From contig NZ_VDMR01000004.1 in assembly GCF_006346315.1 (NCBI RefSeq), positions 248,001 to 312,000 of the forward strand: DNA of 64,000 nt. The letters run 5' to 3'. Numbering within the stretch: the stretch's first letter is position 1; each line of letters begins with the position of its first letter. Both the position numbers and the translations under genes were made by a program. The notes below the pieces were generated by a model that had not been told where the DNA came from, searched no databases, and was given only the letters and a program-made list of their open reading frames with translations. This document shows, piece after piece, positions 17,831 through 44,339 of the stretch. This DNA is from Nocardioides litoris (lineage in GTDB: Bacteria > Actinomycetota > Actinomycetes > Propionibacteriales > Nocardioidaceae).

Positions 17831-19051
17831 ATGACCACCACCCCCGTCCGACCCGGCACCGGCAGCCCGGTGCGCCCCGGCTCGCCCGAGCTCCGCGCCC
17901 TCCTCGACCGCATCTCGGTCGACGCCGACGTGCGCGACCGTGACCGCGTGGCGCCCCACGAGCAGATCGCCTGGGCCAAGGAGGCCGGTCTCGGCCGCCT
18001 GCGGGTCCCGGTCGAGCAGGGCGGGGCCGGGGCGAGCGTCCGTGAGTTCTTCGCCACCCTCATCGAGCTCGCCGAGGCCGACTCCAACGTCGCGCACATC
18101 CTGCGCACGCACTACTGGTTCGTCGAGCAGCAGCTCATCGCCCCCGACCCCGAGGCGAAGGCCCGCGGCCTCGCGCTCATCACCGCGGACCAGCTCGTCG
18201 GCAACGGGTTCAGCGAGCAGAGCAAGCACGCCGTCGGCCTGCGCTTCGACACCACGCTCACGCCCGACCCCGCCGGGGGCTTCCGCCTCAACGGCACGAA
18301 GTTCTACTCCACGGGCACCCTGTACTCCGACCACACCCAGATCTGGGCCGCCGCGCCCGACGGCAAGATCGCCGGCGCGGTCATCCCGCTCGACCGCGAG
18401 GGTGTCACCGTCGAGGACGACTGGGACGGCTTCGGCCAGCGCCTCACCGGCACCGGCAGCACGCGGCTGGACGACGTGCACGTGCGCGAGGAGGAGTTCT
18501 TCGACCTCGGCGACCCCGACGAGCTCGACCCCGGCTACAACGGCGCCTTCCTGCAGCTCTACCTGCAGGCCGTGACCGCCGGCATCCTGCGCAGCGTCCG
18601 CAACGACGCCGTCGCCTGGGTGCAGAAGCGCTCGCGCAACTTCGGCCACTCCGGTGCCGCGACCGCCGCCGAGGACCGCCAGGTGCTGCAGGTCGTCGGT
18701 GAGATCTCGGCCGACGTCTTCGCCGCCGAGGCCATCGTGCTCGCCGCCGCCGACGTCATCCAGGACGCCTTCGACTCCGTCGTCGACGGCGCCCCCACCC
18801 CCGAGGCCACCGAGGCCGCCCAGCTCGCCGCCGCCCAGGCCAAGGTCGCCCTCGACCGCTTCTCCTACGCCACTGCGGCCAAGCTCTTCGACGTCGGCGG
18901 AGCCTCGGCCACCCAGAAGGTCCACAACCTCGACCGGCACTGGCGCAACGCCCGCACCGCCTCCACGCACAACCCGACCTTCCTCAAGGCCAGCGCCATC
19001 GGCGACCACCACGTCAACGGCGCCGGGTTCCCCGGCAACGCCTACTTCTGA
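17831..19051 (+). CDS. Acyl-CoA dehydrogenase-fold flavoprotein (DszC/SfnB-like)
   Basis: A 406-residue protein with the acyl-CoA dehydrogenase fold but motifs nearer to flavin-dependent monooxygenases for sulfur compounds (DszC, SfnB). These are RVPVEQGGAGASVREFF near residue 58, VGNGFSEQSKHAVG near 126, LNGTKFYSTGTLYSD near 155 and a C-terminal DVGGASATQKVHNLDRHWRN. These enzymes use reduced FMN from a partner reductase to oxygenate substrates such as sulfones or dibenzothiophene. The ATG has a strong AGGAGGA six bases upstream. The substrate is unknown; a sulfur role is inferred from similarity only. Confidence 0.8.
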   Translation: MTTTPVRPGTGSPVRPGSPELRALLDRISVDADVRDRDRVAPHEQIAWAKEAGLGRLRVPVEQGGAGASVREFFATLIELAEADSNVAHILRTHYWFVEQQLIAPDPEAKARGLALITADQLVGNGFSEQSKHAVGLRFDTTLTPDPAGGFRLNGTKFYSTGTLYSDHTQIWAAAPDGKIAGAVIPLDREGVTVEDDWDGFGQRLTGTGSTRLDDVHVREEEFFDLGDPDELDPGYNGAFLQLYLQAVTAGILRSVRNDAVAWVQKRSRNFGHSGAATAAEDRQVLQVVGEISADVFAAEAIVLAAADVIQDAFDSVVDGAPTPEATEAAQLAAAQAKVALDRFSYATAAKLFDVGGASATQKVHNLDRHWRNARTASTHNPTFLKASAIGDHHVNGAGFPGNAYF

Positions 19052-19147
19052 CCCGATTGGTCGCAGACCGGCGGCCCTGCGCAGCGGCCCCGCGTCGCTC
19101 TCGCAGGGCTGCCGCGACCTGGTACGGCGGGGCCGATCCCACCCCAC

Positions 19148-19686
19148 GATGGTCGAGGAAGGCGCGCTGGCGCCTGTCTCGAGACCACTCACCGGCTGCC
19201 GTCGCGTGGTCTCAAGACGGGACTTCGTCCCTCCTCGACCACCGTGTGGTCGCTCCTGACCTGGCGCCACGGTGGTCGAGGAAGGCCGCCTGGCGGCCTG
19301 TCTCGAGACCACTCACCGGCTGCAGTCGCTTGGTCTCGAGACGGGACTCCGTCCCTCCTCGACCACCGTGTGGTCGCTCCTGACCTGGCGCCACGGTGGT
19401 CGAGGAGGGCGCGCTGGCGCCTGTCTCGAGACCATTCACCGGCTGCCGTCGCGTGGTCTCGAGACGGGACTTCGTCCCTCCTCGACCACCGTGTGGTCGC
19501 TCCTGACCTGGCGCCACGGTGGTCGAGGAAGGCGCGCTGGCGCCTGTCTCGAGACCATTCACCGGCTGCCGTCGCGTGGTCTCGAGACGGGACTTCGTCC
19601 CTCCTCGACCACCGTGTGGTCGCTCCTGACCTGACGCCACGGTGGTCGAGGAAGGCCGCCTGGCGGCCTGTCTCGAGACCACGCAG
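19148..19686. repeat. Palindromic repeat array 1 (period about 123 bp)
   Basis: Four full units and one half unit recur at 19148, 19271, 19395, 19518 and 19641. Each unit holds two inverted elements. The first runs from GGTGGTCGAGGAAGG to CTGTCTCGAGACCA with inner stem AGGCGC/GCGCCT, or AGGCCGC/GCGGCCT in the units at 19271 and 19641. The second runs from GTGGTCTCGAGACGGGAC to GTCCCTCCTCGACCACC. A spacer rich in CACCGGCTGC separates the two, and a GTGTGGTCGCTCCTGACCTG linker joins units. Long open frames here are by-products of the repeats. The rest of the 19052-19746 gap holds no other recognisable gene. Confidence 0.93.
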
Positions 19687-19746
19687 CCCCAGCCGACGTA
19701 CCCGACCCCACCCCGCGTCCCACCCGAACCCCGAAAGGCCCCATCC

Positions 19747-20382
19747 ATGTCCTCAGTCGGACTGCTCTTCGTCGGAGCCGTGCTGTTCGTCAACGGCCTC
19801 CTCCTGCTCGGCCACGTCGACCCCAAGACCGCCGGCGTCTTCAACCTGTTCGTCGGGGCGCTCCAGACGGCGATCCCCTTCTACCTCATCGCGACCGCGA
19901 CCTCGCCCGACGTCGTCCTGTCGGCGGCGGGAGTGTTCATGTTCGGGTTCACCTACCTGTACGTCGGCATCAACAACCTCGCCGGCTTCGACGGCCCCGG
20001 CCTGGGCTTCTACTCCGCGTGGGTCGCGATCATGGCCGTCGGCTTCGGCGTCACCAACCTGGTCCGCTTCGACGACACCGCGAGCGCGCTGCTGTGGTTC
20101 CAGTGGGCGGTGCTGTGGGGCCTGTTCTTCGTCGTCATCGGCCTCGGCCAGGCGCAGTGGACGACCTTCACCGCCTGGCTGACGCTCATGCTGTCGTTCA
20201 CCACCTGCACCGTGCCGGGCTTCGTCTACCTGCTCGGCGAGACCGTGCCGGCCTGGGCCGTCGCGGCCTCGATCGTGCTCACCGCGGTCGCCCTGGCCCC
20301 GCTCGCCCTGCGGGCCCTGCGCGACGGCGGGTCGACGGCCGTCGAGCCGTCGGCGCCCTCGCCGGTGGCCGTGCCTGCCTGA
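19747..20382 (+). CDS. AmiS/UreI-family channel protein
   Basis: A 211-residue protein with six or seven transmembrane segments and the family N-terminus GLLFVGAVLFVNGLLLLGHV, followed by VFNLFVGALQTAIPFYL. AmiS/UreI proteins conduct urea or short-chain amides across the inner membrane, often beside amidase or urease genes. No such gene adjoins it here; the amidase at 4658 is 15 kb away. The ATG at 19747 has AAAGG about ten bases upstream. It lies directly after the repeat array, so its promoter must be within or just beyond the repeats. Confidence 0.9.
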   Translation: MSSVGLLFVGAVLFVNGLLLLGHVDPKTAGVFNLFVGALQTAIPFYLIATATSPDVVLSAAGVFMFGFTYLYVGINNLAGFDGPGLGFYSAWVAIMAVGFGVTNLVRFDDTASALLWFQWAVLWGLFFVVIGLGQAQWTTFTAWLTLMLSFTTCTVPGFVYLLGETVPAWAVAASIVLTAVALAPLALRALRDGGSTAVEPSAPSPVAVPA

Positions 20383-30066: not shown

Positions 30067-30138
30067 TGGGATATGGTGTAATTGGCAGCACGACTGATTC
30101 TGGTTCAGTTAGTCAAGGTTCGAGTCCTTGTATCCCAG
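30067..30138 (+). tRNA. tRNA-Gln (CUG anticodon)
   Basis: A 72-base cloverleaf. The acceptor arms TGGGATA and TATCCCA pair perfectly, with discriminator G. The anticodon stem ACTGA/TCAGT carries loop TTCTGGT, giving anticodon CTG, and the T loop is TTCGAGT. CCA is not encoded. A hairpin lies between this gene and the next tRNA. Confidence 0.95.
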
Positions 30139-30181
30139 CGAGATCGACGTCACCACGCGAGTGAGGACCTCGATTTGTTGC

Positions 30182-30197
30182 CCGGCCGAGAGGCCGG
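30182..30197 (+). other. Spacer hairpin between tRNA genes
   Basis: CCGGCC, loop GAGA, GGCCGG: a six-base-pair stem with a GNRA-type loop midway between the two tRNAs. It probably helps processing of a joint tRNA precursor. Confidence 0.45.
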
Positions 30198-30215
30198 ATA
30201 ACGTTTCACCAGCAC

Positions 30216-30288
30216 GCCCCCGTTGTGTAGCGGCCTAGCACGGCGCCCTCTCACGGCGTTAGCGCCGGTTCGAATCCGGTCGGGGGTA
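30216..30288 (+). tRNA. tRNA-Glu (CUC anticodon)
   Basis: A 73-base cloverleaf closely matching actinobacterial tRNA-Glu. The acceptor arms are GCCCCCG and CGGGGGT, the anticodon loop CTCTCAC gives anticodon CTC, the T loop is TTCGAAT and the discriminator is A. Base pair 27-43 is a G-T wobble. It is probably cotranscribed with tRNA-Gln. Confidence 0.95.
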
Positions 30289-30343: not shown

Positions 30344-31040
30344 GGTCGTCGAGGGAGGCGCGCTGGCGCCTGTCTCGAGCCCACGAGAGGCGCTGCGGTC
30401 AGTGGTCTGGAGACGGGACTTCGTCCCTCCTCGACCACCGTGTGGTGCCGGGCCACACGGTGGTCGAGGAAGGCGCCCTGGCGCCTGTCTCGAGACCACG
30501 AGAGCCGCTGCGGTCAGATGGCCTCGAGACGGGACTTCGTCCCTCCTCGACCACCGGGCCGGTGCGGTCAGGTGGTCTCGAGACGGGACTTCGTCCCTCC
30601 TCGACCACCGTGTGGTGCCGGGCCACACGGTGGTCGAGGAAGGCGCCCTGGCGCCTGTCTCGAGACCACGAGAGCCGCTGCGGTCAGATGGCCTCGAGAC
30701 GGGACGCCGTGTCTCCTCGGCCACCGGGCCGGTGCGGTCAGGTGGTCTCGAGACGGGACTTCGTCCCTCCTCGACCACCGTGTGGTGCCGGGCCGCACGG
30801 TGGTCGAGGAAGGCGCCCTGGCGCCTGTCTCGAGACCACAAGAGCCGCTGCGGCCTGGTGGTCTCGAGACGGGACTTCGTCCCTCCTCGACCACCGTGGG
30901 GTGCCGGGCCGCACGGTGGTCGAGGAAGGCGCCCTGGCGCCTGTCTCGAGACCACAGCTGCCGCTGCGGTCGGGTGGCCTCGAGAGGGGACTCCGTCCCT
31001 CCTCGACCACGGTGGGGTGCCGGGCCGCACGGTGGTCGCG
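30344..31040. repeat. Palindromic repeat array 2
   Basis: About six elements with inner stem AGGCGC(C)/(G)GCGCCT (30344, 30471, 30631, 30799, 30915 and a fragment near 31031) alternate with seven inverted elements carrying inner stem GGGAC/GTCCC. Those seven lie near 30402, 30518, 30572, 30688, 30741, 30858 and 30975. Outer arms are GTGGTCTCGAGAC and CTCGACCACC as in the other arrays. Spacers read GAGAGCCGCTGCGGTCAG and GTGTGGTGCCGGGCC. The copy at about 30688 has TGGCC matched by GGCCA, a compensating change. The array fills the gap between tRNA-Glu and the convergent LCP gene, with no other gene visible. Confidence 0.93.
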
Positions 31041-38356: not shown

Positions 38357-39124
38357 GTGAACAAGTCGCAGCTCATCGACGCGCTGGCCGACCGCTTCGA
38401 GGGCAACCGCAAGGCCGCGGCCCATGCCCTGGAGTCGGTGCTCGACACCATCACCCGCGAGGTCGCGAAGGGCGAGAAGGTCGCGATCACCGGCTTCGGT
38501 TCCTTCGAGAAGCGGGTCCGCGAGGCCCGGTGGGTCCGCAACCCTCAGACCGGCGAGAAGATCAAGGCCAAGAAGACCTCCGTGCCGAAGTTCACCGCCG
38601 GGGCCGACCTGAAGAACGTCGTCTCGGGTGCCAAGAAGCTGCCCAAGCTGACCATCGCCGCCGCGACCGCCCCGGCCAAGGCCGCCGCCGCCCCGGCCAA
38701 GAAGGCCGCCGCCGCGGCGAGCAAGGTCGCCTCGCCGGCCAAGAAGGCCACGGCGACGAAGGCCCCGGCCAAGAAGACCCCGGCCAAGAAGACCACGACG
38801 GCCTCCACGTCGACGGCCAGCGGGAGCACCGCCGCCACGAAGGCCCCGGCGAAGAAGGCCCCGGCCAAGAAGGCCCCGGCCAAGAAGACCTCGACGTCCA
38901 CGGCGTCGAAGTCCACCGCGACGAAGTCCACCCCGTCGAAGTCGACCGCCTCCAAGTCGACCGCCTCGAAGTCGACGGCCTCGAAGTCGACGGCGTCGAA
39001 GTCCACGGCGAGCAAGAGCACCGCGGCCAAGAAGGCGCCGGCGAAGAAGTCCACCTCGACCGCCGCCAAGAAGGCCCCGGCCACGAAGGCCCCGGCCAAG
39101 AAGGCTCCCGCCAAGAAGGCCTGA
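38357..39124 (+). CDS. hup: Histone-like protein HU with long basic tail
   Basis: A 255-residue nucleoid protein. Residues 1-90 are a standard HU fold ([46 protein letters not shown]). Residues 95-255 are a histone H1-like tail of lysine, alanine, proline, serine and threonine with (A/P)AKK repeats. A central run of TASKS-type repeats (about residues 175-218) contains five near-identical copies. This matches mycobacterial and nocardioform HupB, which compacts DNA and can be acetylated on tail lysines. The GTG has GGAAGGA upstream. Confidence 0.95.
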
Positions 39125-39193
39125 CCACCCCCGCACCTCGACGGGCCGTCCTCCTCCGGGTGGGCGGCCCGTCGCCGTGCCCGGACCGCGGCG

Positions 39194-39230
39194 GCCGTCG
39201 AGGTCGCGCTAGCGACCGCCTCGAGACCAC
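39194..39230. repeat. Single palindromic repeat copy overlapping cofC 3' end
   Basis: On the minus strand it reads GTGGTCTCGAG, inner stem GGTCGC, loop TAGC, GCGACC, then CTCGAC. This is the outer-arm pattern of the three arrays with a different inner hairpin. The TAG that stops cofC lies in the loop. The trailing CACC of the arm is lost. Confidence 0.8.
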
Positions 39231-43974: not shown

Positions 43975-44339
43975 CACGGTGGTCGAGGAAGGACGGAGTC
44001 CTGTCTCGAGACCACGCACCGCTGCCGTCGCGTGGTCTCGAGACAGGCGCCAGGGCGCCTTCCTCGACCACCGGGTGGCCCGGTCGGGCAAGGAACGCGT
44101 CGCTGTCTCGCGACCACGAGACCGCAGCCGTGGTGTGGTCTCGAGACAGGTTCCAGGGCGCCCTCATCGACCACCGTGCGGCCCGGTCGGGCAAGGAACG
44201 CGTCGCTGTCTCGGGGCCACGACACCGCAGCCGGCCGGACCCACGGTGGTCGAGGAAGGACGGAGTCCTGTCTCGAGACCACGCACCGCAGCCGTCGGGT
44301 GGTCCGCAGCCAGGCGCCGGGGCGCCTTCCTCGACCGCC
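43975..44339. repeat. Palindromic repeat array 3
   Basis: Seven elements of the same family. Two (43978 and 44245) carry inner stem AGGAC/GTCCT. Three in the opposite orientation (44032, 44134 and 44299) carry AGGCGCC or degenerate forms. Two (about 44086 and 44184) are degenerate copies with GGAACGCGTCGCTGTC inside. Outer arms are again GTGGTCTCGAGAC and CTCGACCACC. The copy at 44299 has changes in both arms. The array fills the gap between ddl and the convergent DUF3515 gene; no gene is visible in it. Confidence 0.92.

Follow-up and report, generated by a model that had tools for sequence, protein, structure and literature searches.

A tandem array of dispersed palindromic hairpins in Nocardioides litoris, with a small GIY-YIG nuclease as the proposed partner

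The window, a stretch of 64,000 nucleotides of Nocardioides litoris (contig NZ_VDMR01000004.1, positions 248,001 to 312,000 of the forward strand), carries an array of short hairpins between two genes of the plus strand. The layout, in window coordinates, is as follows.

17831..19051, plus strand: acyl-CoA dehydrogenase-like gene, upstream of the array
19149..19682, no strand assigned: hairpin array of 9 elements (5 plus, 4 minus), unit 123-124 bp
19149..19188, plus strand: element, inner stem AGGCGC/GCGCCT (unit 1)
19206..19242, minus strand: element, inner stem GGGAC/GTCCC
19272..19312, plus strand: element, inner stem AGGCCGC/GCGGCCT (unit 2)
19330..19366, minus strand: element, inner stem GGGAC/GTCCC
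19396..19435, plus strand: element, AGGCGC-like inner stem with one base altered (unit 3)
19453..19489, minus strand: element, inner stem GGGAC/GTCCC
19519..19558, plus strand: element, inner stem AGGCGC/GCGCCT (unit 4)
19576..19612, minus strand: element, inner stem GGGAC/GTCCC
19642..19682, plus strand: element, inner stem AGGCCGC/GCGGCCT (unit 5), at the array end and without a partner
19747..20382, plus strand: AmiS/UreI family channel gene, downstream of the array

The plus-strand elements start at 19149, 19272, 19396, 19519 and 19642, which reproduces the 123/124/123/123 spacing given in an earlier, sequence-only reading of this DNA, and TRF reports 4.4 copies of a 123-bp unit, with 94% matches, at 19144-19682. 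The inner stems named there, AGGCGC/GCGCCT and GGGAC/GTCCC with common outer arms, are seen as described, as is the swap to AGGCCGC/GCGGCCT with pairing kept, which falls in units 2 and 5. Its description of two inverted elements per unit holds for units 1-4, while unit 5 has the first element only. The plus and minus elements of the array share a single design, GTGGTCGAGGA-stem-loop-GTCTCGAGACCAC, read in one direction or the other. A CRISPR test found no unique spacers, whole 123-bp units being near-identical, spacers included, and no T-run intrinsic terminators were found in 18900-19900.

Further copies of the family, overlooked in the earlier reading, lie elsewhere in the window.

30345..31010, no strand assigned: second array of the same family, 11 or 12 elements depending on the finder
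39191..39230, plus strand: lone diverged element, from the element finder
43979..44282, no strand assigned: third array, partly decayed; its convergent neighbours are the D-Ala-D-Ala ligase and DUF3515 genes

The second array also lies between convergent genes. Periods are 170 and 116 bp in the 30.4-kb array and 103 bp in the 44-kb array, and the regular format reported for the 19-kb array thus stands for that array, the others in the window having different periods. Two tRNA genes (30067-30288), directly ahead of the 30-kb array, are all that Rfam reports in the window at gathering score. Window positions 38357-39124 encode a protein that reads as HU-like, with a long Lys/Ala/Pro-rich tail of 15-bp repeats.

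Two arrays of the window are absent from relatives. The spacer between the acyl-CoA dehydrogenase and AmiS genes measures 10-102 nt in 12 relatives (the loci, of 29, where both flanking genes were found) against 695 in N. litoris. The site of the 44-kb array, for which 13 genomes were searched, measures 13-29 nt in 5 of 10 distinct relatives against 438 in N. litoris; in two of the others the spacer is short and the gene ends are incomplete, and the last three hold other sequence of 829-1205 bases.

A genome-wide search for the element, as proposed in the sequence-only reading, revealed a dispersed family and not a peculiarity of a single contig. The 13-base core GTCTCGAGACCAC occurs in 164 exact copies (84 + 80) in the 4.66-Mb genome, and as the reversed control gives 0, these copies are not due to chance. 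Surroundings were surveyed in part of the genome, namely in stretches round the first 100 listed core sites plus two arbitrary stretches. From the survey stretches, the window and locus L124, a finder demanding 4 bp or more in the inner stem collected 165 elements; this supersedes an earlier neighbour count of 184, which was inflated by reading the GTCTCGAGAC palindrome on both strands (gap -16). An arms-only finder gave 167 elements in 67 clusters. By our own codon-usage gene calls, 34 of these clusters lie between co-directional genes, 26 between convergent and 4 between divergent genes, with 1 mostly in a gene and 2 undecided; three single-element clusters wholly within gene calls (one a 24-nt partial match) are placed in this tally by their neighbours. 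With the remaining spacers of these stretches as background, the clusters are over-represented in convergent spacers (p = 1e-6) and under-represented in divergent ones (p = 0.04). Close neighbours are inverted in 72 cases and direct in 18. The family therefore shares with REPs both its short, mostly extragenic, high-copy imperfect palindromes and their arrangement in inverted pairs and alternating arrays.

The element is a hairpin of 37-41 nt with the frame N4-GAG-inner stem-loop-CGA-N4', in which the part that recurs is a GAG adjoining the left arm and a CGA adjoining the right arm. Inner stems differ from copy to copy and arms differ by lineage (the variants are referred to below as dialects), with pairing kept in both. 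Folded as single-stranded DNA, four of five sequences form a long hairpin with a two-base bulge (z -4.7 to -2.5), and an idealised dialect-B sequence folds least well (z -1.6). Tandem G.A steps of the PyGAPu kind are stable in DNA; GAG and CGA could pair as such a step, although the fold program prefers a bulge.

Because the requirement for a stem of at least 4 bp favours pairing, covariation was recounted on copies chosen by their arms alone. Among 56 distinct 40-nt copies, 96.4% of inner-helix cells are paired compared with 77.3% after shuffling (maximum 81.0%), and there are 66 double changes compared with 22.7 (maximum 32). A set of 54 copies and 12 pairs gives 95.4% paired against 85.3% and 63 double changes against 19.9, with all six inner pairs altered on both sides. 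Two of five covariation measures, pairs with a change and pair types with a change, were not above shuffles (77 and 100 of 500). The outer helix shows no double change within the N. litoris genome; between genomes the arms occur as GGTC/GACC, GGTT/AACC and GGCT/AGCC, with pairing kept.

Among 72 inverted neighbours within 60 bases, no two partners have the same inner stem, although 25% would be expected to (p = 1e-9; stems of equal length and 80% identity count as alike), and the same is seen when one inverted pair per locus is taken (0 of 32, p = 1e-4). Direct neighbours have the same inner stem in 17 of 18 cases. Elsewhere in the genus, 72 of 89 direct and 2 of 114 inverted neighbours scored alike, and the latter two, when inspected, differ as well (GGTTGC and GGTCGC; AAGGCC and AGGCGC). 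Inverted pairing and covariation, on which the sequence-only reading had staked its case, are thus both found in the stretches surveyed. Its view of the inner stems as interchangeable needs to be narrowed: they vary among copies, but are not freely interchangeable because inverted partners are always unlike. Cells tend to delete or break near-perfect inverted repeats of ~40 bp that lie a few bases apart. Partners with like stems would form long unstable inverted repeats of this kind, and this is the likely cause of only unlike pairs persisting.

An element-flanked Y1 (RAYT-like) transposase gene, sought in keeping with the REPIN resemblance, did not turn up: PF01797 has 0 matches in the N. litoris genome and is absent from 196 of 198 genomes of the taxonomic family, including the two richest in the 13-mer core, and in the two genomes with Y1 no recognisable hairpin of the GAG..CGA kind lies beside the Y1 genes. 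The linked enzyme is of a different type. The sole match to P0001 in the N. litoris genome is a small GIY-YIG (UPF0213-like) gene in cluster L049, with elements on both sides.

L049:2139-2477 = G000:C12:986141-986476, minus strand: GIY-YIG nuclease gene of N. litoris, 112 aa, PF01541 E = 4e-16

PDB relatives of this nuclease are UPF0213 proteins (1zg2, E = 3e-13; 1ywl, E = 4e-7), and NCBIfam gave no match for it. The protein reads YHVG, with His where 49 of the 50 proteins compared have the Tyr of the YIG motif, so the enzyme may be altered or impaired. A single-sequence AlphaFold model was poor (pLDDT 65) and was set aside.

Matches to P0001 are present in 125 of 215 genomes of the genus. We analysed 50 nuclease loci: those of the 30 genomes with the best scores, and 20 more selected manually, for the most part in genomes already known to carry arrays. 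At 46 of them both flanks have the motif no more than 500 bases from the gene, at 3 one flank does, and at 1 neither does, short hairpins CGCCGAGCTTGTCGAGGCG being present there; the reversed motif gives 7 hits against 280 true ones. (A first, dialect-bound finder had placed elements at 32 of the 50 loci and was replaced by one based on arm complementarity.) Motif density falls from 4.86 per kb within 500 bases of the nuclease to 0.49 at 500-1000 and 0.29 at 1000-1500, and the nearest elements face inward in 29 of the 46 loci. As the main finder requires complementary arms, arm pairing was recounted without that demand: 99 of 501 hits are fully complementary compared with 21.3 after shuffling, and at control loci 1 of 170. 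At 27 loci of long GIY-YIG genes, taken for UvrC/DnaQ types, the motif is found on both sides at 0 and on one side at 1, a weak control because these windows fall mostly within long genes. A hit anywhere was seen at 9 of the 27 UvrC/DnaQ-type loci (0.13 per kb) and at 4 of 17 loci of acyl-CoA dehydrogenase genes (0.06 per kb). Linkage across genomes was examined for the GIY-YIG gene; in N. litoris, an HNH-domain gene (L052:602-1894) also sits between element clusters (143-388 and 2031-2408), and an SLT-domain gene was noted in L047.

Copy number follows the nuclease as well. Across the genus the median element count is 17 in genomes with the nuclease and 1.5 in those without (p = 5e-8; the pattern counts some elements twice and the statistics ignore kinship), and 100 or more elements are found in 22 of 125 genomes with it and 1 of 90 without. 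Twenty or more elements are nevertheless present in 17 of the 90 genomes that lack a match to P0001; PF01541 matches in the 18 richest of these genomes are mainly long frames taken for UvrC/DnaQ-type genes, some being shorter or weak, and G307 (69% complete) has no PF01541 match. The N. litoris genome itself holds 23 class-D elements, copies of a second dialect (GAGGTGCGA..GCCTCGARRCC) without a matching nuclease gene, its single P0001 match being of dialect A. Such orphan elements fit a loss of the enzyme, and they also weaken any strict dependence on it. In G322, the relative closest at the window locus, the nuclease is flanked by this second class, with GGCT/AGCC arms.

Dialect and nuclease lineage go together. 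Mapped on the nuclease tree, whose inner branches have good support in 13 of 47 cases, the dialect classes require 12 changes compared with 28.3 after shuffling, a value that none of 200 shuffles brought down as far. Taken by class, B, C and D are clustered (0 of 500 shuffles), and A, which is scattered, is weakly so (9 changes where shuffling gives 13.8; 3 of 500 shuffles go as low). The paralogues in G235 and in G117 are separated on the tree in keeping with their dialects and those of G061 less clearly so. L215 (dialect A) sits within the D clade, next to L216, a paralogue from its own genome, and the G259 paralogues fall together despite differing dialects. Linkage alone would make the flanking dialect follow the nuclease gene. 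The genome-wide copies, in counts that include the few at the nuclease itself, match it too. Where the nuclease is flanked by dialect A, the genome-wide A fraction is at least 0.97 in 15 of 16 genomes (the exception being G207, at 0.2), and where it is flanked by dialect B this fraction is at most 0.5 in 12 of 12 (A against B, p = 7e-6, kinship ignored). This sharpest test was limited to A and B because the class C pattern also matches coding sequence; with all four classes, the observed score was equalled in 0 of 20000 permutations (45 genomes, one unclassed).

The association extends beyond the genus. A scan of GTDB contigs found at least 569 relatives of the nuclease, and 80 named loci were kept, which among the matches listed comprise 65 from Actinomycetota, 11 from Chloroflexota and 4 from Bacteroidota (phyla assigned from titles). 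The motif is on both sides at 66 of these listed loci, on one side at 6 and on neither at 8; among the matches listed, both sides carry it in 11 of 11 Chloroflexota and 3 of 4 Bacteroidota. The reversed motif gives 8 hits at the 80 listed loci against 376 true ones. Of the 8 listed loci that lack it, seven have similar hairpins with other or imperfect arms by eye (e.g. CACTGAGTAG..CGTATCGAAGTG) and one is at a contig end. A stricter motif with five-base arms leaves 33 of the 80 listed loci with both sides, 20 with one and 27 with none (180 hits, against 15-63 for scrambled cores and 125-132 for self-complementary control cores); the four-base-arm version was preferred because the fifth arm base is often unpaired. 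In the plasmid and phage collections, relatives of the nuclease were found only below 60% identity (35 and 22 records). Five records were examined of 35 hits. Among the Pseudomonadota, hairpins flank the nuclease match on both sides in Methylobacterium bullatum and Sphingomonas parapaucimobilis, the downstream hairpin of the latter falling in the end of the annotated gene; in the records of Sphingomonas paeninsulae, E. coli yhbQ and B. subtilis yazA none adjoins the gene. The hairpins beside the Methylobacterium and Sphingomonas matches (L339 and L340) are CCTGAG..CGAAGG and GGCTGAGCGAAGTCGAAGCC. Repeats that look like these are very common in both groups.

We consider it probable that the array arose by local tandem amplification of a dispersed palindromic element whose partner is a small single-domain GIY-YIG nuclease, its gene bracketed by the hairpins, and we propose that the nuclease drives the spread of the family. 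Judging from sequence patterns, recognition of the hairpin by the nuclease is likely, and we infer from the same patterns that the nuclease may also spread it. It would recognise and nick the hairpin when this is single-stranded, on the lagging strand or during repair or DNA uptake; repair of the nick from another copy would spread and convert elements and keep the family uniform, and tandem arrays could then grow by unequal exchange.

Judged by the enzyme, the nearest known system is that of Neisseria, in which Ssn, a small GIY-YIG single-strand nuclease, is accompanied by hundreds of target-like NTS/dRS3 copies in the genome, the repeat also flanking the nuclease gene. Ssn cuts single-stranded DNA at NTS and thereby modulates DNA uptake or recombination. 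The system described here, as read from sequence, likewise joins a small GIY-YIG nuclease to many repeat copies and has the repeat flanking the gene, and the two are probably kin. The Neisseria repeats have other sequences and, to our knowledge, no GAG..CGA frame; nor are we aware of similar heterotypic inverted pairs or lineage-specific dialects among them. By analogy, the nuclease might act as a gatekeeper, cutting single-stranded DNA at these sites and modulating uptake or recombination while the repeats spread by other means. The GIY-YIG domain, the UPF0213 relatives in PDB and the many-copy target-like repeats would suit such a role, which is also compatible with nuclease-driven spread and not exclusive of it. 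The tie between copy number and nuclease speaks against it, and the uniformity of dialect within genomes is easiest to understand if the enzyme drives copying; neither point is proof, and we regard the gatekeeper role as the less likely reading, though a serious one. The sequence relationship to UPF0213/YhbQ/YazA (1zg2, 1ywl) does not extend to the arrangement, since E. coli yhbQ and B. subtilis yazA, in one record each, are without an adjoining hairpin; near yazA, three hits that overlap one another and look like chance fall ~600 bases further along, within the following gene.

It is improbable that the hairpins are simply useful to the host, as terminators, mRNA stabilisers or gyrase-type sites acting in RNA or DNA, with the nuclease merely a neighbour. 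Their enrichment between convergent genes and their stable single-strand folds (z to -4.7) would be expected of such elements; however, the array has no T-run terminators, orthologous sites of relatives lack the elements, one nuclease family is linked to them in 49 of 50 loci and 72 of 80 listed loci, and the dialect match holds in trans.

A true REPIN or BIME, as in REP-RAYT systems with a Y1 transposase as the mover, is more improbable still, even though the layout is REP-like. In Nunvar et al. 2010 (PMC2817692), RAYT genes are stated to be always flanked by two inverted REPs, and the definition of a REP includes a GT(A/G)G head before the palindrome. The present family resembles REP/REPIN/BIME-RAYT systems in its dispersed imperfect palindromes, inverted pairs and alternating arrays and, going by PMC2817692, in an enzyme gene flanked by inverted copies. 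Unlike in those systems, the linked enzyme is a GIY-YIG nuclease without a Y1 transposase, PF01797 being missing from N. litoris and nearly all of the family genomes; the elements lack the GT(A/G)G head of that source and have the N4-GAG..CGA-N4' frame instead; and arms change by lineage, inner stems recur across species and inverted partners are unlike. The REPIN resemblance noted in the sequence-only reading therefore survives as one of layout (dispersed, mostly extragenic inverted palindrome pairs) and not of enzyme, and the best reading of the system is a nuclease-linked counterpart of REP/RAYT, not a REPIN. The word nuclease is absent from the available part of a paper on stem-loop families (PMC2267715), and among open-licence PMC papers we recognised none that treats these repeats.

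An ordinary minisatellite is the least probable explanation of all: replication slippage of an inert spacer would suit the near-identical 123-bp units and the tandem units at other sites, and likely accounts for growth of the array itself, but not for an element that stands single or paired, with compensatory changes, in dozens of further spacers. Minisatellites, the mycobacterial MIRU among them, are tandem intergenic units of tens to a hundred bases; the unit here differs in being a covarying hairpin pair, with dispersed single copies and a linked nuclease.

Many bacterial genomes harbour dispersed palindromes without a known mover. For this hairpin family there is a clear partner enzyme, with a chemistry different from that of RAYT. 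More tentatively, and with somewhat less than even confidence, we suggest that these are transposase-free mobile palindromes of at least four phyla, in which GAG..CGA hairpins (with a putative tandem G.A step) would be spread by a linked GIY-YIG single-strand nuclease, with co-evolving dialects and a strict rule of unlike stems for inverted partners. The matching dialects make recognition by the nuclease directly testable, and such nucleases could serve as tools that cut single-stranded DNA in a structure- and sequence-specific manner. If the nuclease does spread the hairpins, selfish repeats of this kind would have arisen at least twice, with unrelated enzymes.
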